A DNA stretch of 61,007 nucleotides from Erysipelotrichaceae bacterium (GCA_029101345.1 JAQXQU010000113.1:1-61007); one strand, 5' to 3'; numbered from the stretch's first letter, positions 45,170-54,662 are shown. Program-made: numbers and translations. The notes: generated by a model from the sequence alone, not told the origin.

Positions 45170-45209
45170 CAGCCAATTCAATGTGCTATCATATTGGTGG
45201 AGGTTTCTT

Positions 45210-46031
45210 ATGTCTGATTGCAATCATAACTGTTCATCATGCAGCTCAAACTGCTCTTCACGCCAGGCTCCGCAGATCAAGCCGCTTGATGACGTAAATA
45301 TTACAAAAATCATTGGTGTCCTTTCGGGCAAGGGTGGTGTAGGCAAATCCATGGCCAGTGCCTTGCTGGCAATTGAACTTGCACGCAAGGGCTATCGTGT
45401 TGGCATTATGGATGCCGATATTACAGGTCCTTCCATTCCGAAGATGTTTGGCGCCAATGTTCGCTTGGCTGGTGATGAAAAGGGCATCATCCCTTATGAA
45501 ACACCACTTGGTATCAGAACTGTTTCCATCAATATGATGCTTGACAGTGAAGATACACCAGTCATTTGGCGTGGTCCGGTTCTTGGCAGCATTATTCGCC
45601 AGTTCTATACCGAAGTCCATTGGGGAGATCTGGATTATCTTGTCATTGACATGCCACCAGGAACTGGTGATGTTGCTTTATCAGTTGTCCAGGATATTCC
45701 AATTGATGGTTTCCTGATGGTTACATCACCATCAAAACTTGTTTCCATGGTAGTATCAAAGGCCATCAATTTTTCTGATGTTGCTAAAACACCGGTTCTA
45801 GGTCTTATTGAGAATATGGCTTATGTCAAATGTGATAGCTGTGGCCATGATATTGTCATCTATCGGAATGATGATACACAGAATGTCGCTGATAAATTTG
45901 GCCTTGATGTCTTGGCAAAACTGCCAATTGATCCATTATTGGCTAATTTGGCTGATGAAGGCTTTATTGAAGATTATGAAGGAAACTATTTGCATAAGGC
46001 AGTGGTTCAAATCGAAAAACTTGATGACTAG
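45210..46031 (+). CDS. Mrp/ApbC-type P-loop Fe-S carrier ATPase
   Basis: 273 residues. Family members bind and transfer [4Fe-4S] clusters. Cysteine-rich N-terminus (CNHNCSSCSSNCSS), deviant Walker A GVLSGKGGVGKS near residue 38, DADITGPSIPKM near 62, DMPPGTGDVA near 142 and a C-terminal CDSCG (CxxC cluster site) near 212. Start 45210 follows GGAGG; an upstream in-frame ATG at 45183 would add nine residues over the promoter. It could feed clusters to the Fe-S enzymes of the 49-54 kb operon, as inference. Confidence 0.93.
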   Translation: MSDCNHNCSSCSSNCSSRQAPQIKPLDDVNITKIIGVLSGKGGVGKSMASALLAIELARKGYRVGIMDADITGPSIPKMFGANVRLAGDEKGIIPYETPLGIRTVSINMMLDSEDTPVIWRGPVLGSIIRQFYTEVHWGDLDYLVIDMPPGTGDVALSVVQDIPIDGFLMVTSPSKLVSMVVSKAINFSDVAKTPVLGLIENMAYVKCDSCGHDIVIYRNDDTQNVADKFGLDVLAKLPIDPLLANLADEGFIEDYEGNYLHKAVVQIEKLDD

Positions 46032-49440: not shown

Positions 49441-50211
49441 ATGGAAAATGGAGCAAAGATCATTGCACTTTGCGGAAAAGGCGGTGTCGGCAAGACATCC
49501 CTTTCGGCAGCAATCATCAAAACTCTGCTGGATGCTCACCCTGACAAAAGAGTTCTGGCAATTGACGCCGATCCTTCTGTTGGACTAGCAACAGCACTAG
49601 GTGTCAAGGAGAATGGTACAATCAATGACATTCGCGAAGAGTTCATCCAAATGGCGGATAGTGGCAGTGAAGATAATGCCTTGGCCATGTTGGCAAGAGC
49701 TAAATCCATGATTCTTGATGAACTGGTGGAGGAAGGCAATCTGGCTTTTTTGGCTATTGGCCGTCCTGAGTCTGCGGGCTGCTATTGCAGTGTCAATGAT
49801 TATCTGCGTGATTTGATAACAATGGTTGCGGACAAATTCGATTTTGTTGTCATTGATGGGGAAGCTGGCATTGAACAGATCAATCGCCGGGTTATGGACA
49901 AGGTCAATTATCTGCTTCTTGTTTCTGATGCATCAAGGAAGGGTCTTGATGTCATCAGCAAGATCAAGGATGTTGGTGACAAGCTGCTGGAATATGAAAA
50001 ATGCGGGGCAGTCATCAATCGCCTGGATGATTTGTCAGTTGCTGAAAGGATTGAGACAGGCAAGATGGAAATCCTGACGGTTATTGGCAGTGATAATGAA
50101 TTGGCACGCTATGATATTGAAGGCAAATCAATCCTTGAACTCCCTGCTGATGCCAAGATCATCAAGGGTGCTAAGGAAATATTAAGGAAAATGGATATCG
50201 AGGTAGCATAA
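49441..50211 (+). CDS. CooC-like nickel/Fe-S maturation ATPase
   Basis: 256 residues of the SIMIBI/MinD class. Deviant Walker A LCGKGGVGKTSLS at residues 10-22, DADPSVGLATALG near 41 and the CooC signature GRPESAGCYCSVNDYLR near 103, where a CxC pair binds metal across the dimer, then VVIDGEAGIEQINR near 136. CooC proteins load nickel or aid cluster assembly in carbon monoxide dehydrogenase/acetyl-CoA synthase. No CODH gene is here, so the client is probably in this operon. It shares one base with the next start (TAATG). Confidence 0.88.
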   Translation: MENGAKIIALCGKGGVGKTSLSAAIIKTLLDAHPDKRVLAIDADPSVGLATALGVKENGTINDIREEFIQMADSGSEDNALAMLARAKSMILDELVEEGNLAFLAIGRPESAGCYCSVNDYLRDLITMVADKFDFVVIDGEAGIEQINRRVMDKVNYLLLVSDASRKGLDVISKIKDVGDKLLEYEKCGAVINRLDDLSVAERIETGKMEILTVIGSDNELARYDIEGKSILELPADAKIIKGAKEILRKMDIEVA

Positions 50212-51395
50212 TGAAAGATCTGAAACACCTGTATTATTTTGAAAAGCTTCTGGAAGATGCCGATAACGAACTGGTAAGAAAAGGCAAGGATGAGGGACTC
50301 AAATGCATTGCCACCACCTGTGAGAATGTACCGGAACCTCTGATCAATCTGCCTGGTACTTTCTCAGTACGCCTAAGGGCGCCAAGAAGCTCTTCACTTG
50401 AGATGGGAACTTATTATATGACAAGCTTCCTATGCGAATATTCAAGAGCTCTGCTTGAAAGGGCAATTGAAGGTGGTTTTGAATTTACGGATTGCATTAT
50501 CTGTCCTGATGGCTGTTCGATGATCAACCGCTGTGTTGAGAATATGGAACTATTGAAGACCATGTCTGGCAAGGATTTCTTCTATGAATATATGGAAATC
50601 CCAATGAAAGCTGATGATAATGGACTATTCCTCTATAAGATCCAATGTGAAAACCACATCCTGAAACCTTTGAAGGAGAAGTTTGGCATTGATGTCTCAG
50701 ATCAGGCAATCAGGGAAGCTGTCAAACAGCACAATCGCATATGTGAACTGATAAGGGAAATAGGTGAATACCGCAAGGAAGAAAAGCCAAGAATCACTGG
50801 TTATGAATATCATATTCTGACGATGGCAACCTATGTAGCTCCGAAACATCTTCTGATTGAAAAGCTGGAAGAAACTTTGGAAGAAGTCAAAAACCGGATT
50901 CCTGATGACAAGGCCTTTCGGGCAAGAGTGGTACTGGTGGGCTCAGAAGTTGATGATGTTGATGTTGTCAAGCTGATAGAGGATTCTGGTGCCTATGTCT
51001 GTGCTGACCGCTTCTGTTATGGTTCTTTCCCAGGAAGAGATGTCATTGAACTGAATGACGATGAAGACGCACTAACCCAGCTCTGTCGCCAATATATGAA
51101 TCGAGGCCAATGCCCACGTTATATGAATCAGGCCAAGATGGTAGGAAGAAGAGCCTATGTCGCTGCTCTGGCCAAAGAGTACAAAGCCGATGGCATCATC
51201 TATGAACAGATGAAATTCTGTGATCCATGGGCTTATGAAAGAATGATGGGAACAGCCATCCTGCGTGATGATTACCATTATCCGGTTCTTTCAGTTGATC
51301 GTCCTTATTCAGTAGGAACTTCAGGTCAGCTCAGGACCAGAGTCCAGGCTTTTGTAGAAAGCATTGAAATCAAGAAGATCCAAGGAGGCAAATAA
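50211..51395 (+). CDS. 2-hydroxyacyl-CoA dehydratase-family subunit (HgdB/DCCP-like)
   Basis: 394 residues. The dehydratase D-component fold is indicated by CENVPEPLI near residue 37, a CIICPDGCSMINRC cluster region near 95-108, VGSEVDDVD near 244, ADRFCYGS near 266 and EQMKFCDPWAYER near 333. In this family three cysteines hold a [4Fe-4S] cluster (or a double-cubane cluster in DCCP) reduced by an ATP-driven activase. More cysteines occur near 95-108 than the usual C-D-x-x, so the cluster type is uncertain. Overlaps both neighbours by one base. Confidence 0.85.
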   Translation: MKDLKHLYYFEKLLEDADNELVRKGKDEGLKCIATTCENVPEPLINLPGTFSVRLRAPRSSSLEMGTYYMTSFLCEYSRALLERAIEGGFEFTDCIICPDGCSMINRCVENMELLKTMSGKDFFYEYMEIPMKADDNGLFLYKIQCENHILKPLKEKFGIDVSDQAIREAVKQHNRICELIREIGEYRKEEKPRITGYEYHILTMATYVAPKHLLIEKLEETLEEVKNRIPDDKAFRARVVLVGSEVDDVDVVKLIEDSGAYVCADRFCYGSFPGRDVIELNDDEDALTQLCRQYMNRGQCPRYMNQAKMVGRRAYVAALAKEYKADGIIYEQMKFCDPWAYERMMGTAILRDDYHYPVLSVDRPYSVGTSGQLRTRVQAFVESIEIKKIQGGK

Positions 51396-52969
51396 TGCAA
51401 GTAGCAAGTGAAAACAAGATTGGCGCTGATAATCTTGGACGTTTCTATACTGACGGCAAGGTACGCAATCGCCGGGAATGGCGTGGTCTTAAGGATACCT
51501 TATATGATTATTGGAAGTGGTTGGGAATCATGAAGATTCTGGCTGGTTTTATAATCAAGCCTCGCAATATCAAAGCCTTCTTCCGTTATCGCTGGATGGC
51601 CAATTACCTTGGTGTTCCAATGATGGTTGACCGTCATACCCAAGGCTTAAGAGGGCCATATCTGCGTATTGCCCATACTGAATTTGATCTGGTAGTAGCC
51701 GATGTCGCCAAACTGTTGGACAATCTGTTTAGAGGCGACCGTCATGTCGGCAATGATAAAGAATTCTCCAAAAAAGTGGTTCTGGAAGATGAAAATGAAA
51801 TGACTGTCTTCATGATGGGCTTTCCTGATCTCAAGGGCTTATCAAGAGAAACGCCGGCTGTCTATGTTTCAGTTCTTTTGAATCAGCATGCGGCTGAACA
51901 TTATATAGATACTGCCCAGGAATTTGGCTTGGCAGGTGATGTCTGTCCAATGCCGGAAGCAGAAGCCGGTGTCTCCATTGAGGATGATTTCCCAGTTCTT
52001 GGAGCCTGTGCCGTCCAATGCAATACCACTTGTGATGGTTCCCTGATGGGCAATGGTGTCATTTCCAAGCGTTTGGAACTTGAAGAAGGCATTCCTTGTT
52101 TCCAGCTGGCTACGCCGCTTCGCCATCGTGAAGATGATGTCCAGCAATATGCAGCTAATGAAATGGCTAACTGCATCCGTTTCATCGAAGAGAATACAGG
52201 ATCCAAATGGGATTGGGACTACTATTTTGAATGTGCTAAGCGTGTCAATGAATCAACCAGACATCGTCAATACTGGCTGGAGATGAACAAGAGCGATTAT
52301 CCTCAGGTCTTTGGCTCAAATCTTGCCTTATATACAGAAACCAACTATATGGCCATTTGTGGAAAGATTCCGGACTTTGTGGAAGCTGACCGCAAGATTA
52401 CTGCTATTGCTGAAAAGGCCTACCAGGAAAAGAAGATGGCTGTCAAGGAATATCGCCATCGGGCAATTGTCTGGGGTGTCCAGTCCCACTTCTACTTTGA
52501 TTTCCTCATCTGGTTGCAGAACTGCTGGGGCATCATTCCTTTGACTGATATGCTGTCAATGGTTTCAACCAGAGTCCTTTGTGAAGAAAATACCCCTGAA
52601 GGTAGAGAAAAGGCCATGCTTGATATGGCATGGCTGAATGAAAACATGATCATGCGCAATCGTACTCATGGTGGCTATAAGGTTCTTCTTGATGAATTGT
52701 TTGAGTTCTGCGAGGAATTCAGAGCTGATACTGTCATTCTTTGGGAACATATGGCCTGCAAGGCACTGGATGGCATGCATGGACAGTTTGAAGAAAAAGC
52801 CAGACAGAAGGGCATTCATCTGATTTGGGTTGGTCATGATCTTTTTGATCCAAGAATCATTTCCCGTCAAGGAGTCAGAGACCAGGTCAATAACTATATG
52901 CGTTCAGTCATGCGTGAAGAACCGCTTGATCCAAGTCTGGAAGTATTGAATGATGAGAATTCATGGTAA
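51395..52969 (+). CDS. 2-hydroxyacyl-CoA dehydratase-family subunit, large
   Basis: 524 residues, longer than classical HgdA/FldB (about 400-480). Family features are the DVCPMPEAE...GACAVQCNTTCDGS cysteine region near 190-215 and the C-terminal EHMACKALDGM near 450, plus HLIWVGHDLFDP. An N-terminal ~100-residue basic region (IMKILAGFIIKPRNIKAFFRYRW) is not in the classical subunits. With the upstream subunit it probably forms a heterodimer. Fifteen bases separate it from the activase gene. Substrate unknown; no acyl-CoA ligase or transferase is near. Confidence 0.85.
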   Translation: MQVASENKIGADNLGRFYTDGKVRNRREWRGLKDTLYDYWKWLGIMKILAGFIIKPRNIKAFFRYRWMANYLGVPMMVDRHTQGLRGPYLRIAHTEFDLVVADVAKLLDNLFRGDRHVGNDKEFSKKVVLEDENEMTVFMMGFPDLKGLSRETPAVYVSVLLNQHAAEHYIDTAQEFGLAGDVCPMPEAEAGVSIEDDFPVLGACAVQCNTTCDGSLMGNGVISKRLELEEGIPCFQLATPLRHREDDVQQYAANEMANCIRFIEENTGSKWDWDYYFECAKRVNESTRHRQYWLEMNKSDYPQVFGSNLALYTETNYMAICGKIPDFVEADRKITAIAEKAYQEKKMAVKEYRHRAIVWGVQSHFYFDFLIWLQNCWGIIPLTDMLSMVSTRVLCEENTPEGREKAMLDMAWLNENMIMRNRTHGGYKVLLDELFEFCEEFRADTVILWEHMACKALDGMHGQFEEKARQKGIHLIWVGHDLFDPRIISRQGVRDQVNNYMRSVMREEPLDPSLEVLNDENSW

Positions 52970-52984
52970 GAGAGGTAGAATAAT

Positions 52985-53779
52985 ATGAAATATTTTGGTG
53001 GATGTGATTCCGGCAGTACTTATACAAAATGTGTCATTATTGATGAAAATGGCAGGATGGTAGCCAATGTGACTTTAAAAAGCCGCATCAATTCAGTCCT
53101 TTCAGCCAAGGAATCGCTTGAGATGGCCGTTAGCCAGGTTGAAGACTTGAAGAGTGCTGAAGATCTGGCATATCTTGTTGGTACAGGCTATGGTCGAAAC
53201 AAGGTACCATTTGCGGATGAGAACATTTCGGAAATCAGCTGTCATGCCATGGGTGTGCATGTGGCTGATCCAAAAGTCAAGGCCATCATTGATATCGGTG
53301 GCCAGGATGTCAAGGGCATTAATGTCGATAGTGACGGAACAGTCTTGAACTTTGCCATGAATGACAAGTGTTCAGCTGGTACCGGCCGCTTCTTTGAAGC
53401 AATGGCCAGAGCCTTTGAAATGGATCTTGATGAATTCTCCAAGCTTTCACTTAAAGCAAAGAATATCATCCCTATTACTGCCCAATGTACAGTTTTTGCC
53501 GAATCGGAAGTCATCTCACTTGTTGGCGAAGGCAAGCCAATGGATGAAATAGCTGCAGGCATTGAATTGTCAGTTGCCAAGCGTTGCTTTGTCATGGCTA
53601 AGAAGGCTGGAGCAGTTGACAATGTGGCTTTGACTGGCGGTTGTGCCAAGAATGATGGCTTGAAGGCTGCAATTGAAAAGGTATTGAAGCTCAAGGTCAT
53701 TGATTTGCCAATTGATCCACAGCTGATGGGTGCCTTAGGGGCAGCTGAATTTGCAAGGCAGAAAGGAATGGATAAATAA
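52985..53779 (+). CDS. 2-hydroxyacyl-CoA dehydratase activase (HgdC-like)
   Basis: 264 residues of the ASKHA (actin-like) ATPase fold. FGGCDSGSTYTKCVII at the start binds phosphate; VGTGYGRNKV, IDIGGQDVKGI; NDKCSAGTGRFFE with Cys129 and AQCTVFAESEVISL with Cys168, the pair that would hold one [4Fe-4S] across the homodimer; and LTGGCAKNDG near 218. It injects electrons at very low potential into the two-subunit partner by ATP hydrolysis. Overlaps the small membrane-protein gene by one base. Confidence 0.93.
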   Translation: MKYFGGCDSGSTYTKCVIIDENGRMVANVTLKSRINSVLSAKESLEMAVSQVEDLKSAEDLAYLVGTGYGRNKVPFADENISEISCHAMGVHVADPKVKAIIDIGGQDVKGINVDSDGTVLNFAMNDKCSAGTGRFFEAMARAFEMDLDEFSKLSLKAKNIIPITAQCTVFAESEVISLVGEGKPMDEIAAGIELSVAKRCFVMAKKAGAVDNVALTGGCAKNDGLKAAIEKVLKLKVIDLPIDPQLMGALGAAEFARQKGMDK

Positions 53780-53946
53780 TGGGTATCTTATTATCAATCA
53801 TCAAATGGCTCATCATTATTCTGGTCATCCTGTTTGTCCTTACCTTTACAGCCTATTTCTTCAATCTCGATATGAAACTGACAGCTGCTCTTCAACCGCT
53901 CTTTGAAAAGTGGTATGACAGGCTTGAAAGAGACAAGAGACTTTAA
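53779..53946 (+). CDS. Small membrane protein (55 aa) in the 2-HAD operon
   Basis: 55 residues. One hydrophobic helix covers about residues 3-30 (ILLSIIKWLIIILVILFVLT), followed by an amphipathic, charged tail ending RLERDKRL. It overlaps the activase stop (TAATG) and the next start (TAATG), each by one base, which indicates obligatory coupling. No family recognised. It may anchor the complex at the membrane or link it to an electron donor; this is inference. Confidence 0.8.
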   Translation: MGILLSIIKWLIIILVILFVLTFTAYFFNLDMKLTAALQPLFEKWYDRLERDKRL

Positions 53947-54662
53947 TGATGGATCTTCATGACTTGCAAATCAAAGCCATCAACGATCTGTTGAAGGACA
54001 TTGATTTCAAGAGCATTCCCATCAAGGAAAGCACTTGGCCAGATGTTGGCAAGAACAACTTCATCTTAAGCAAGGAAAGCGCCTATGAACTTGGCTATCG
54101 GCAGGGGCTGATGATCAATCTTGTCACCAGTTCTGATATCGGGGAAGATGGCATCTATCTTTACGGACAGGACCTTTCTGATCTGAAGGAAGCTGACAGC
54201 TATTTGCGTATAGCCCTTGTTAAAATCAGGGATGAAGAACTGGAAGGCGAGAAGCTCTTTGAGCAGATCAAGCAGATTGGCTATAGCCGCTATCGGGTGA
54301 ATCCTGAAGGCTTCATGTTAAAAGTGACAGGTGTTGGCGATATTGAAAAGGTTCGCCTTAGCAAAGAAGCAATTCGAAAGGGCATATCCTTTGCCGATGT
54401 CGGCAATCTATATCTTAAGGCCTATCAGAAGCTTCCTTATGTTGAAAAGGTCAGGATGTATTTTCTGACAGCAGATATTGATTTCAAGGCCTTTGAAGAA
54501 ATATCCTTAAGGACAGGAGAGATTACAAAAGCCATTGACCATATCACTAAGACAGTGCTTGATGATTGTGGGTCCTGTAGTGTAAAGACAATCTGCGATA
54601 GTGTACAAAGCATGCGGCTTTTGCATAAGAAAGAAGACAAGCAGGGTTTTTCTTCTGAGTAA
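53946..54662 (+). CDS. CX2CX5C protein of the 2-HAD operon, ACS-beta-like tail
   Basis: 238 residues, soluble. The C-terminal motif is D-D-C-G-S-C-S-V-K-T-I-C-D with Cys at about 208, 211 and 217, followed by S-V-x-S-M-R-x-L-H. A similar DCGSC...ICDxVxxM pattern is, to my recollection, found in proteins annotated as CO dehydrogenase/acetyl-CoA synthase-related; I could not check this. The N-terminal two-thirds (LGYRQGLMINL, EELEGEKLFEQIKQIGYSRYR) show no A-cluster ligand set. It may be a cluster-bearing accessory protein served by the CooC-like ATPase. ATG 53946 or 53949 is possible. Confidence 0.65.
   Translation: MMDLHDLQIKAINDLLKDIDFKSIPIKESTWPDVGKNNFILSKESAYELGYRQGLMINLVTSSDIGEDGIYLYGQDLSDLKEADSYLRIALVKIRDEELEGEKLFEQIKQIGYSRYRVNPEGFMLKVTGVGDIEKVRLSKEAIRKGISFADVGNLYLKAYQKLPYVEKVRMYFLTADIDFKAFEEISLRTGEITKAIDHITKTVLDDCGSCSVKTICDSVQSMRLLHKKEDKQGFSSE

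Follow-up and report, generated by a model that had tools for sequence, protein, structure and literature searches.

A candidate nickel enzyme locus combining a CooC-type ATPase, a truncated acetyl-CoA synthase domain and a putative ATP-driven reductase pair in an Erysipelotrichaceae bacterium

Several described systems resemble the gene block reported here. In the class I benzoyl-CoA reductase (BCR) BzdNO (PDB 8s02), a BadFG-type activase with two different subunits drives a heterodimer of a double-cubane subunit, BzdN, which holds [8Fe-9S] via Cys36, Cys73, Cys100, Cys263, Cys293 and Cys327, and a three-cysteine [4Fe-4S] subunit, BzdO (PMC11971306). The double-cubane cluster protein system DCCP/DCCP-R (6eno, 7yyl) has the same fold, double-cubane ligands and a single-type activase, and HadBC, the (R)-2-hydroxyisocaproyl-CoA dehydratase of the 2-hydroxyacyl-CoA dehydratase family (HAD, or 2-HAD), which also works with an activase, has a three-cysteine cluster in its alpha-like subunit. 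The maturation set of carbon monoxide dehydrogenase (CODH) is CooC-CooT-CooJ, and acetyl-CoA synthase (ACS; AcsB/CdhC) is the classic client of CooC/AcsF-type proteins. We describe a six-gene block at positions 49441-54662 of the window that brings parts of these systems together. The window is the whole stretch of DNA analysed (61,007 nt), one entire contig (JAQXQU010000113.1) from the genome of the gut bacterium Erysipelotrichaceae bacterium (GCA_029101345.1).

We give an even chance to the block being an ATP-driven low-potential reductase of the BCR/HAD/double-cubane superfamily together with a dedicated metal-maturation set, in which CooC loads nickel. The narrower proposal, that the enzyme is a nickel-dependent member of this superfamily and receives its nickel through CooC (and CooT in relatives) onto a truncated ACS subunit, is more tentative, and we would give it a little under even weight. 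The family membership, the cysteine sets, the ACS-domain homology, the conservation of the operon and its co-location with nickel chaperones are well supported by sequence comparison and predicted structures, and we regard the block as a candidate new nickel enzyme. No published description of a combination of CooC, an ACS domain and 2-HAD subunits was found in the open-access literature, and to our knowledge the known types of nickel enzyme are few. If the reading is correct, a new nickel enzyme type would bring together nickel-insertion genes, a piece of ACS and the strongest biological reductants powered by ATP, and CooC and CooT would gain a client besides CODH.

The putative reductase pair and its activase

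The block consists of six co-oriented open reading frames (ORFs) on the plus strand. An initial annotation of the window had described them as a single unit with four one-base overlaps, and the ORF positions confirmed this, with overlaps at 50211, 51395, 53779 and 53946 and a 15-base gap at the remaining junction, between genes 3 and 4. The gene identities it had proposed stood for the CooC-type ATPase, the two 2-HAD subunits, the activase and the 55-residue membrane protein, but what it had called a CX2CX5C protein is a truncated ACS-domain protein. The ORFs immediately 3' of the block, read from their translations, encode ribosomal protein S6, single-strand binding protein and S18; since they lie on the same contig, the block is chromosomal.

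Genes 2 (50211-51395, plus strand; 394 aa) and 3 (51395-52969, plus strand; 524 aa) are the only HGD-D genes of the genome. Both carry the HGD-D domain (PF06050) above the Pfam cut-off of 28.4 bits, with scores of 294 and 113 bits, respectively, and their membership of the BCR-I/HAD/DCCP (HGD-D) superfamily is well supported, for gene 3 also by its fold. Gene 2 is a BzdN/DCCP-like subunit with a profile match to BzdN at E 2e-35. Its cysteines C37, C75, C102, C269, C301 and C337 align with C36, C73, C100, C263, C293 and C327 of BzdN, so that all six ligands are kept, and across 52 sequences they are 100% conserved except for C37 (94%). An [8Fe-9S] double-cubane cluster is thus predicted for gene 2.

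Gene 3 is a divergent, BzdO/HadB-like catalytic subunit with profile matches to DCCP, MbdO, BzdO and HadB. Its AlphaFold2 model (pLDDT 84) gave VIA Z scores of 25-26 against HadBC, BzdO and DCCP. In the profile alignment, Cys184 (codon 51944-51946), Cys213 (52031-52033) and Cys455 (52757-52759; all on the plus strand) correspond to the [4Fe-4S] ligands Cys95, Cys128 and Cys380 of BzdO, and all three are invariant, also in the Desulfobacterota copies. In contrast, the position of the catalytic His131 of BzdO is occupied by Ser216 in gene 3 and by Gly in the Desulfobacterota copies, and gene 3 has a helical N-terminal extension of about 90 aa.

Gene 4 (52985-53779, plus strand; 264 aa) encodes an HgdC/BadFG-type ATP-driven activase, with 219 bits against TIGR00241 (NCBIfam CoA_E_activ; cut-off 125) and 192 bits against BcrAD_BadFG (PF01869). 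It is followed by gene 5 (53779-53946, plus strand), a hydrophobic, 55-aa protein with a single membrane span and a conserved Y..NLD.K...D motif, for which 80 related sequences were found. Gene 5 tends to accompany the gene 2-3 pair, and is kept beside some of the extra pairs described below.

Genes 2 and 3 therefore hold nine of the nine ligand cysteines of BzdNO, as expected if the initial annotation was right to propose a novel ATP-driven reductase, akin to the double-cubane proteins and containing a complex metal cluster. The block differs from BzdNO in its single activase gene and in the added CooC, ACS-domain and membrane proteins, and gene 2 scored 93 bits with the NCBIfam bzdN model, below the cut-off of 453.8. 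Unlike DCCP, the block would form a heterodimer with the double-cubane set in one subunit only, and it has the extra CooC, ACS and CooT genes; the score for the double-cubane anaerobic reductase equivalog NF040772 was 147 bits (curated cut-off 350). The HadC score, 88 bits, fell far short of the cut-off of 700, and the full double-cubane set makes the cysteine pattern of genes 2 and 3 unlike that of an ordinary 2-hydroxyacyl-CoA dehydratase. A typical fermentation neighbourhood, which would have spoken for such a dehydratase, was not seen either: no CoA-transferase or electron-transfer flavoprotein genes were noticed near the block, although they were not searched for systematically or genome-wide.

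Gene 6 and the client of CooC

Gene 6 (53946-54662, plus strand; 238 aa) matches the CdhC/acetyl-CoA synthase domain PF03598 with 30.9 bits (cut-off 24), and its profile matches ACS at E 1e-8. The AlphaFold2 model (pLDDT 90) superimposed on residues ~316-495 of ACS, the middle domain, with a VIA Z score of 17.1 over 163-168 residues. Its assignment as an ACS middle-domain protein is thus well supported by profile and model alike. It is the only CdhC-domain match in the genome. Within the class, two genomes of 1.1 Mb gave PF03598 matches that were short and weak, lay in 149-aa frames, and were taken as chance.

In the true ACS sequences of three carrier genomes, which we read directly, a CX2CX8CX9C motif follows soon after the middle domain, with CGC further along. 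At the corresponding place gene 6 keeps CX2CX5C alone (54567-54596, plus strand) and then stops. It thus shares with ACS the middle domain and the first three A-cluster-type cysteines, but lacks the N-terminal domain, the A-cluster C-terminal domain, the last of the four cluster cysteines and the CGC that binds nickel. The pattern used to find relatives demanded the three cysteines, R223 and H226, and their conservation in the large set is therefore no evidence. In Desulfobacterota copies found through gene 3, independently of the motif, the three cysteines are kept and H226 is not; the apparent invariance of H226 and R223 was set aside as an artefact of the pattern.

Gene 1 (49441-50211, plus strand; 256 aa) is a MinD/CooC-type P-loop ATPase by Pfam, and its closest PDB match by phmmer is CooC1 (3kje, E 8e-13). 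Both features that mark CooC proteins are present, namely the deviant Walker A motif GKGGVGKT and a CxC metal site, and both are invariant in 33 aligned sequences. The CxC is a CYC (49780-49788, plus strand) that aligns with Cys112 and Cys114 of CooC1, which bind Zn or Ni at the dimer interface (PMC6006190).

A CODH operon requires CooS, and a search of this genome with TIGR01702 gave no match. The same holds for 18 of the 26 carrier genomes, bearing out the earlier suggestion of a CooC without CODH, and only 4 of 25 have a clear corrinoid Fe-S protein. The general client of the block CooC can therefore be neither CODH nor a Wood-Ljungdahl ACS, and the possibility that gene 1 is a leftover CODH maturase was rejected on the same CODH counts. 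Strain 1XD21-13, which has CODH/ACS, allowed a direct comparison: its two CooC genes adjoining ACS/CODH scored 184 and 91 bits against the block-CooC profile, compared to mostly about 384-423 bits for the CooC genes within Lachnospiraceae blocks. The block thus has its own CooC subfamily, whose client most simply sits in the block itself.

We considered whether the block could instead be an ATP-driven substitute for CODH/ACS, making acetyl-CoA or CO, as the ACS-derived gene 6 and the presence of CooC might suggest. Such a role could explain the acetogenic labelling of 'Ca. Galacturonibacter soehngenii', a Lachnospiraceae acetogen with CO dehydrogenase activity despite having no canonical CODH/ACS (PMC7000372). 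However, 21 of 25 carriers have no clear corrinoid Fe-S protein, gene 6 has neither the nickel CGC nor the ACS C-terminal domain, and butyrate-forming Butyrivibrio and Pseudobutyrivibrio commonly carry the block. A part in acetogenesis was rejected because the corrinoid protein and CODH are mostly absent from carriers, and we hold the substitute to be unlikely in the extreme.

For a nickel-dependent reductase we infer the following electron flow, and with it the roles of gene 6 and of the membrane protein and the kind of substrate. Hydrolysis of ATP by the activase would inject electrons into the gene 2 subunit, to be stored on the [8Fe-9S] double cubane and passed on to the three-cysteine cluster of gene 3, which would reduce an acyl-CoA or a comparable unsaturated compound. 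Gene 5 may anchor the 2-3 pair to the membrane. CooC would load the nickel, in some relatives with assistance from CooT and from a His-rich protein. Gene 6, as a remnant of the classic CooC/AcsF-type client, is most likely the direct receiver, and could serve as a nickel/Fe-S carrier or as a docking subunit for the 2-3 pair.

A plain Fe-S enzyme without nickel would account for many of the same observations. Genes 2-5 would then encode a BzdNO/HAD-like acyl-CoA reductase or dehydratase, with gene 1 as an Fe-S assembly ATPase and gene 6 as a CoA-binding or electron-transfer subunit. The cysteine sets are fully explained by a double cubane plus [4Fe-4S], this genome has no CooT, and a CoA-binding gene 6 would fit the interaction reported between CoA and the middle domain of ACS (PMC12289521). 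On the other hand, the CxC of CooC is invariant, and CooT and the His-rich gene lie inside the block at 10 loci (see below). We also know of no HAD, BCR or DCCP system described with CooC or ACS parts. We consider this explanation doubtful.

Related loci and their layouts

The search with the pattern from the gene 6 tail covered 84,980 species genomes and matched at least 120 stretches. Among the matches listed, at least 105 loci combine gene 6 with one or more other genes of the set, mostly in the same order; the association is therefore not chance. The carriers belong to Lachnospiraceae, other Clostridia, Spirochaetota and Desulfobacterota, and three layouts dominate. Two have the order CooC-2-3-activase-5-6, followed either, in many cases, by an IsrA-like gene and HypA, or by CooT and/or an old yellow enzyme (OYE)-family gene; the third is CooC-6-HisRich-CooT-activase-2-3-5. 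The block occurs commonly among bacteria of the gut and rumen, where it offers a candidate gene set for unexplained low-potential reductions.

Gene 3 was carried by 18 of 200 sampled Lachnospiraceae species, some of which have two to four copies. Extra 2-3 pairs occur without an adjacent CooC, activase or gene 6 (L180, L185, L192), divergent pairs among them (L091, L098/L183, L131). Among the Lachnospiraceae with such lone or divergent pairs (L180, L185, L192, L183), a single genome has as many as four copies of gene 3 (G854). The extra pairs are probably paralogous enzymes that share one maturation set. Since they occur without activase, CooC or gene 6, we read the block as two modules, an enzyme (genes 2, 3 and 5) and a maturation and activation set (genes 1, 4 and 6, CooT and the His-rich protein) that could serve several enzymes.

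The gene 3 sequence from the window groups with those of Lachnospiraceae and Treponemataceae and lies far from two of the copies labelled Erysipelotrichaceae, and gene 3 is absent from the other 35 genomes of the same genus. The GC content of the block (44.0%) is slightly above the window mean (41.6%, for stretches of equal length). Taken together, these observations suggest that the block was acquired horizontally. With gene 3 as query, neither viral contigs nor plasmids nor a sample of the phylum gave a match. One same-genus genome has a short decayed stretch (L004:1492-1653, minus strand; G008:C55), flanked by a GGDEF gene and a CsoR-like gene. Over 50 aa, interrupted by stops, it is 44% identical to the C-terminus of gene 6, and it may be the remnant of a lost block.

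Nickel chaperones and neighbouring reductases

Of the 105 loci, 17 have CooT near the block (identified by Pfam, PF10133, E 2.7e-17) and 13 have the His-rich gene, whose small product has no Pfam match. With the CODH set CooC-CooT-CooJ the block thus shares a CooC with CxC and, in some relatives, CooT and a small His-rich protein, but it has no CODH, and these genes lie embedded with a 2-HAD-type complex. At 10 loci both lie inside the block, which points to nickel. At three loci (L020, L034, L125), where CooT and the His-rich gene are also present, an HtpG (Hsp90) gene directly adjoins the block.

The other recurring neighbours are OYE-type genes (BaiCD/bilirubin-reductase-like), beside the block at 17 loci, and IsrA-like genes, at 16 loci and mostly with HypA. 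These are the block's partners in gut Firmicutes, and reduction of C=C bonds would be expected of both. We set HypA aside as a sign of nickel in the block complex, because it is documented next to IsrA homologues (PMC10134865). The isr cluster, a putative isoprene reductase (PMC10134865), has a counterpart beside the block in relatives: HypA and an IsrA-like protein with two CxC motifs at a distance of 74 residues, the latter a separate flavin/Fe-S reductase and thus a neighbour rather than a member. This genome has consecutive genes for HypB, an IsrA-like protein and HypA on another contig (G000:C17:24406-27617; L201:5721-9624), HypB being identified by reading its translation. The IsrA-like protein (970 aa) shares 68% identity with its counterpart next to the block in Pseudobutyrivibrio, and its two CxC motifs are spaced as in IsrA, at 74 residues. 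We read these three genes as a nickel-linked cluster of the putative isoprene reductase type, unlinked to the window.

These neighbours raise the possibility that the block is not a metabolic enzyme, but a reductive activator or maturase of a second nickel enzyme, the IsrA-like or OYE neighbour. ATP-driven double-cubane-like proteins reported to activate methyl-coenzyme M reductase provide a precedent (PMC12176620), and the frequent IsrA-like and OYE genes, as well as the HypB-IsrA-HypA row in this genome, are consistent with such a role. Many loci, however, have neither partner, the Desulfobacterota blocks sit among acyl-CoA genes, and several paralogous 2-3 pairs in one genome look more like enzymes with different substrates. 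An activator role is accordingly improbable.

In Desulfobacterota, the block adjoins genes for ADP-forming acyl-CoA ligase, enoyl-CoA hydratase, short-chain dehydrogenase/reductase (SDR), amidohydrolase and EFR1 ferredoxin. The initial annotation had noted no acyl-CoA ligase nearby, which holds for the window copy but not for these relatives. Four of these loci (L164, L166, L167, L168) have a second, different BCR-like pair with two activases beside the block; they are probably clusters for acyl-CoA degradation that have not been described before. The acyl-CoA genes and the second pair favour acyl-CoA substrates in this group, and the acyl-CoA genes also fit the plain Fe-S enzyme set out above.

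Several points weigh against a nickel-loaded reductase. With its missing cysteine and CGC, gene 6 has no ready-made visible nickel site, and the conservation of its C-terminal motif is pattern-biased in the large set, leaving the Desulfobacterota copies as the unbiased ones. CooC-like proteins need not carry nickel, as the CooC of R. rubrum binds it weakly (PMC6006190). CooT was not found in this genome and is missing from most type A loci; where CooT lies near OYE, or HypA near an IsrA-like gene, their role may be to supply those neighbours. The block in the window is not flanked by acyl-CoA genes. Finally, the pairwise distances of the block genes correlate (r 0.72-0.93), which counts in favour of this reading, but transfer of the whole operon would also produce such values. 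Even so, we retain the nickel-dependent reductase as our preferred reading, in which the enzyme's nickel content is a prediction.

A few kilobases upstream of the block, at window positions 45183-46031 (plus strand), lies a gene for an Mrp/NBP35-type iron-sulfur carrier ATPase, which is probably unrelated.

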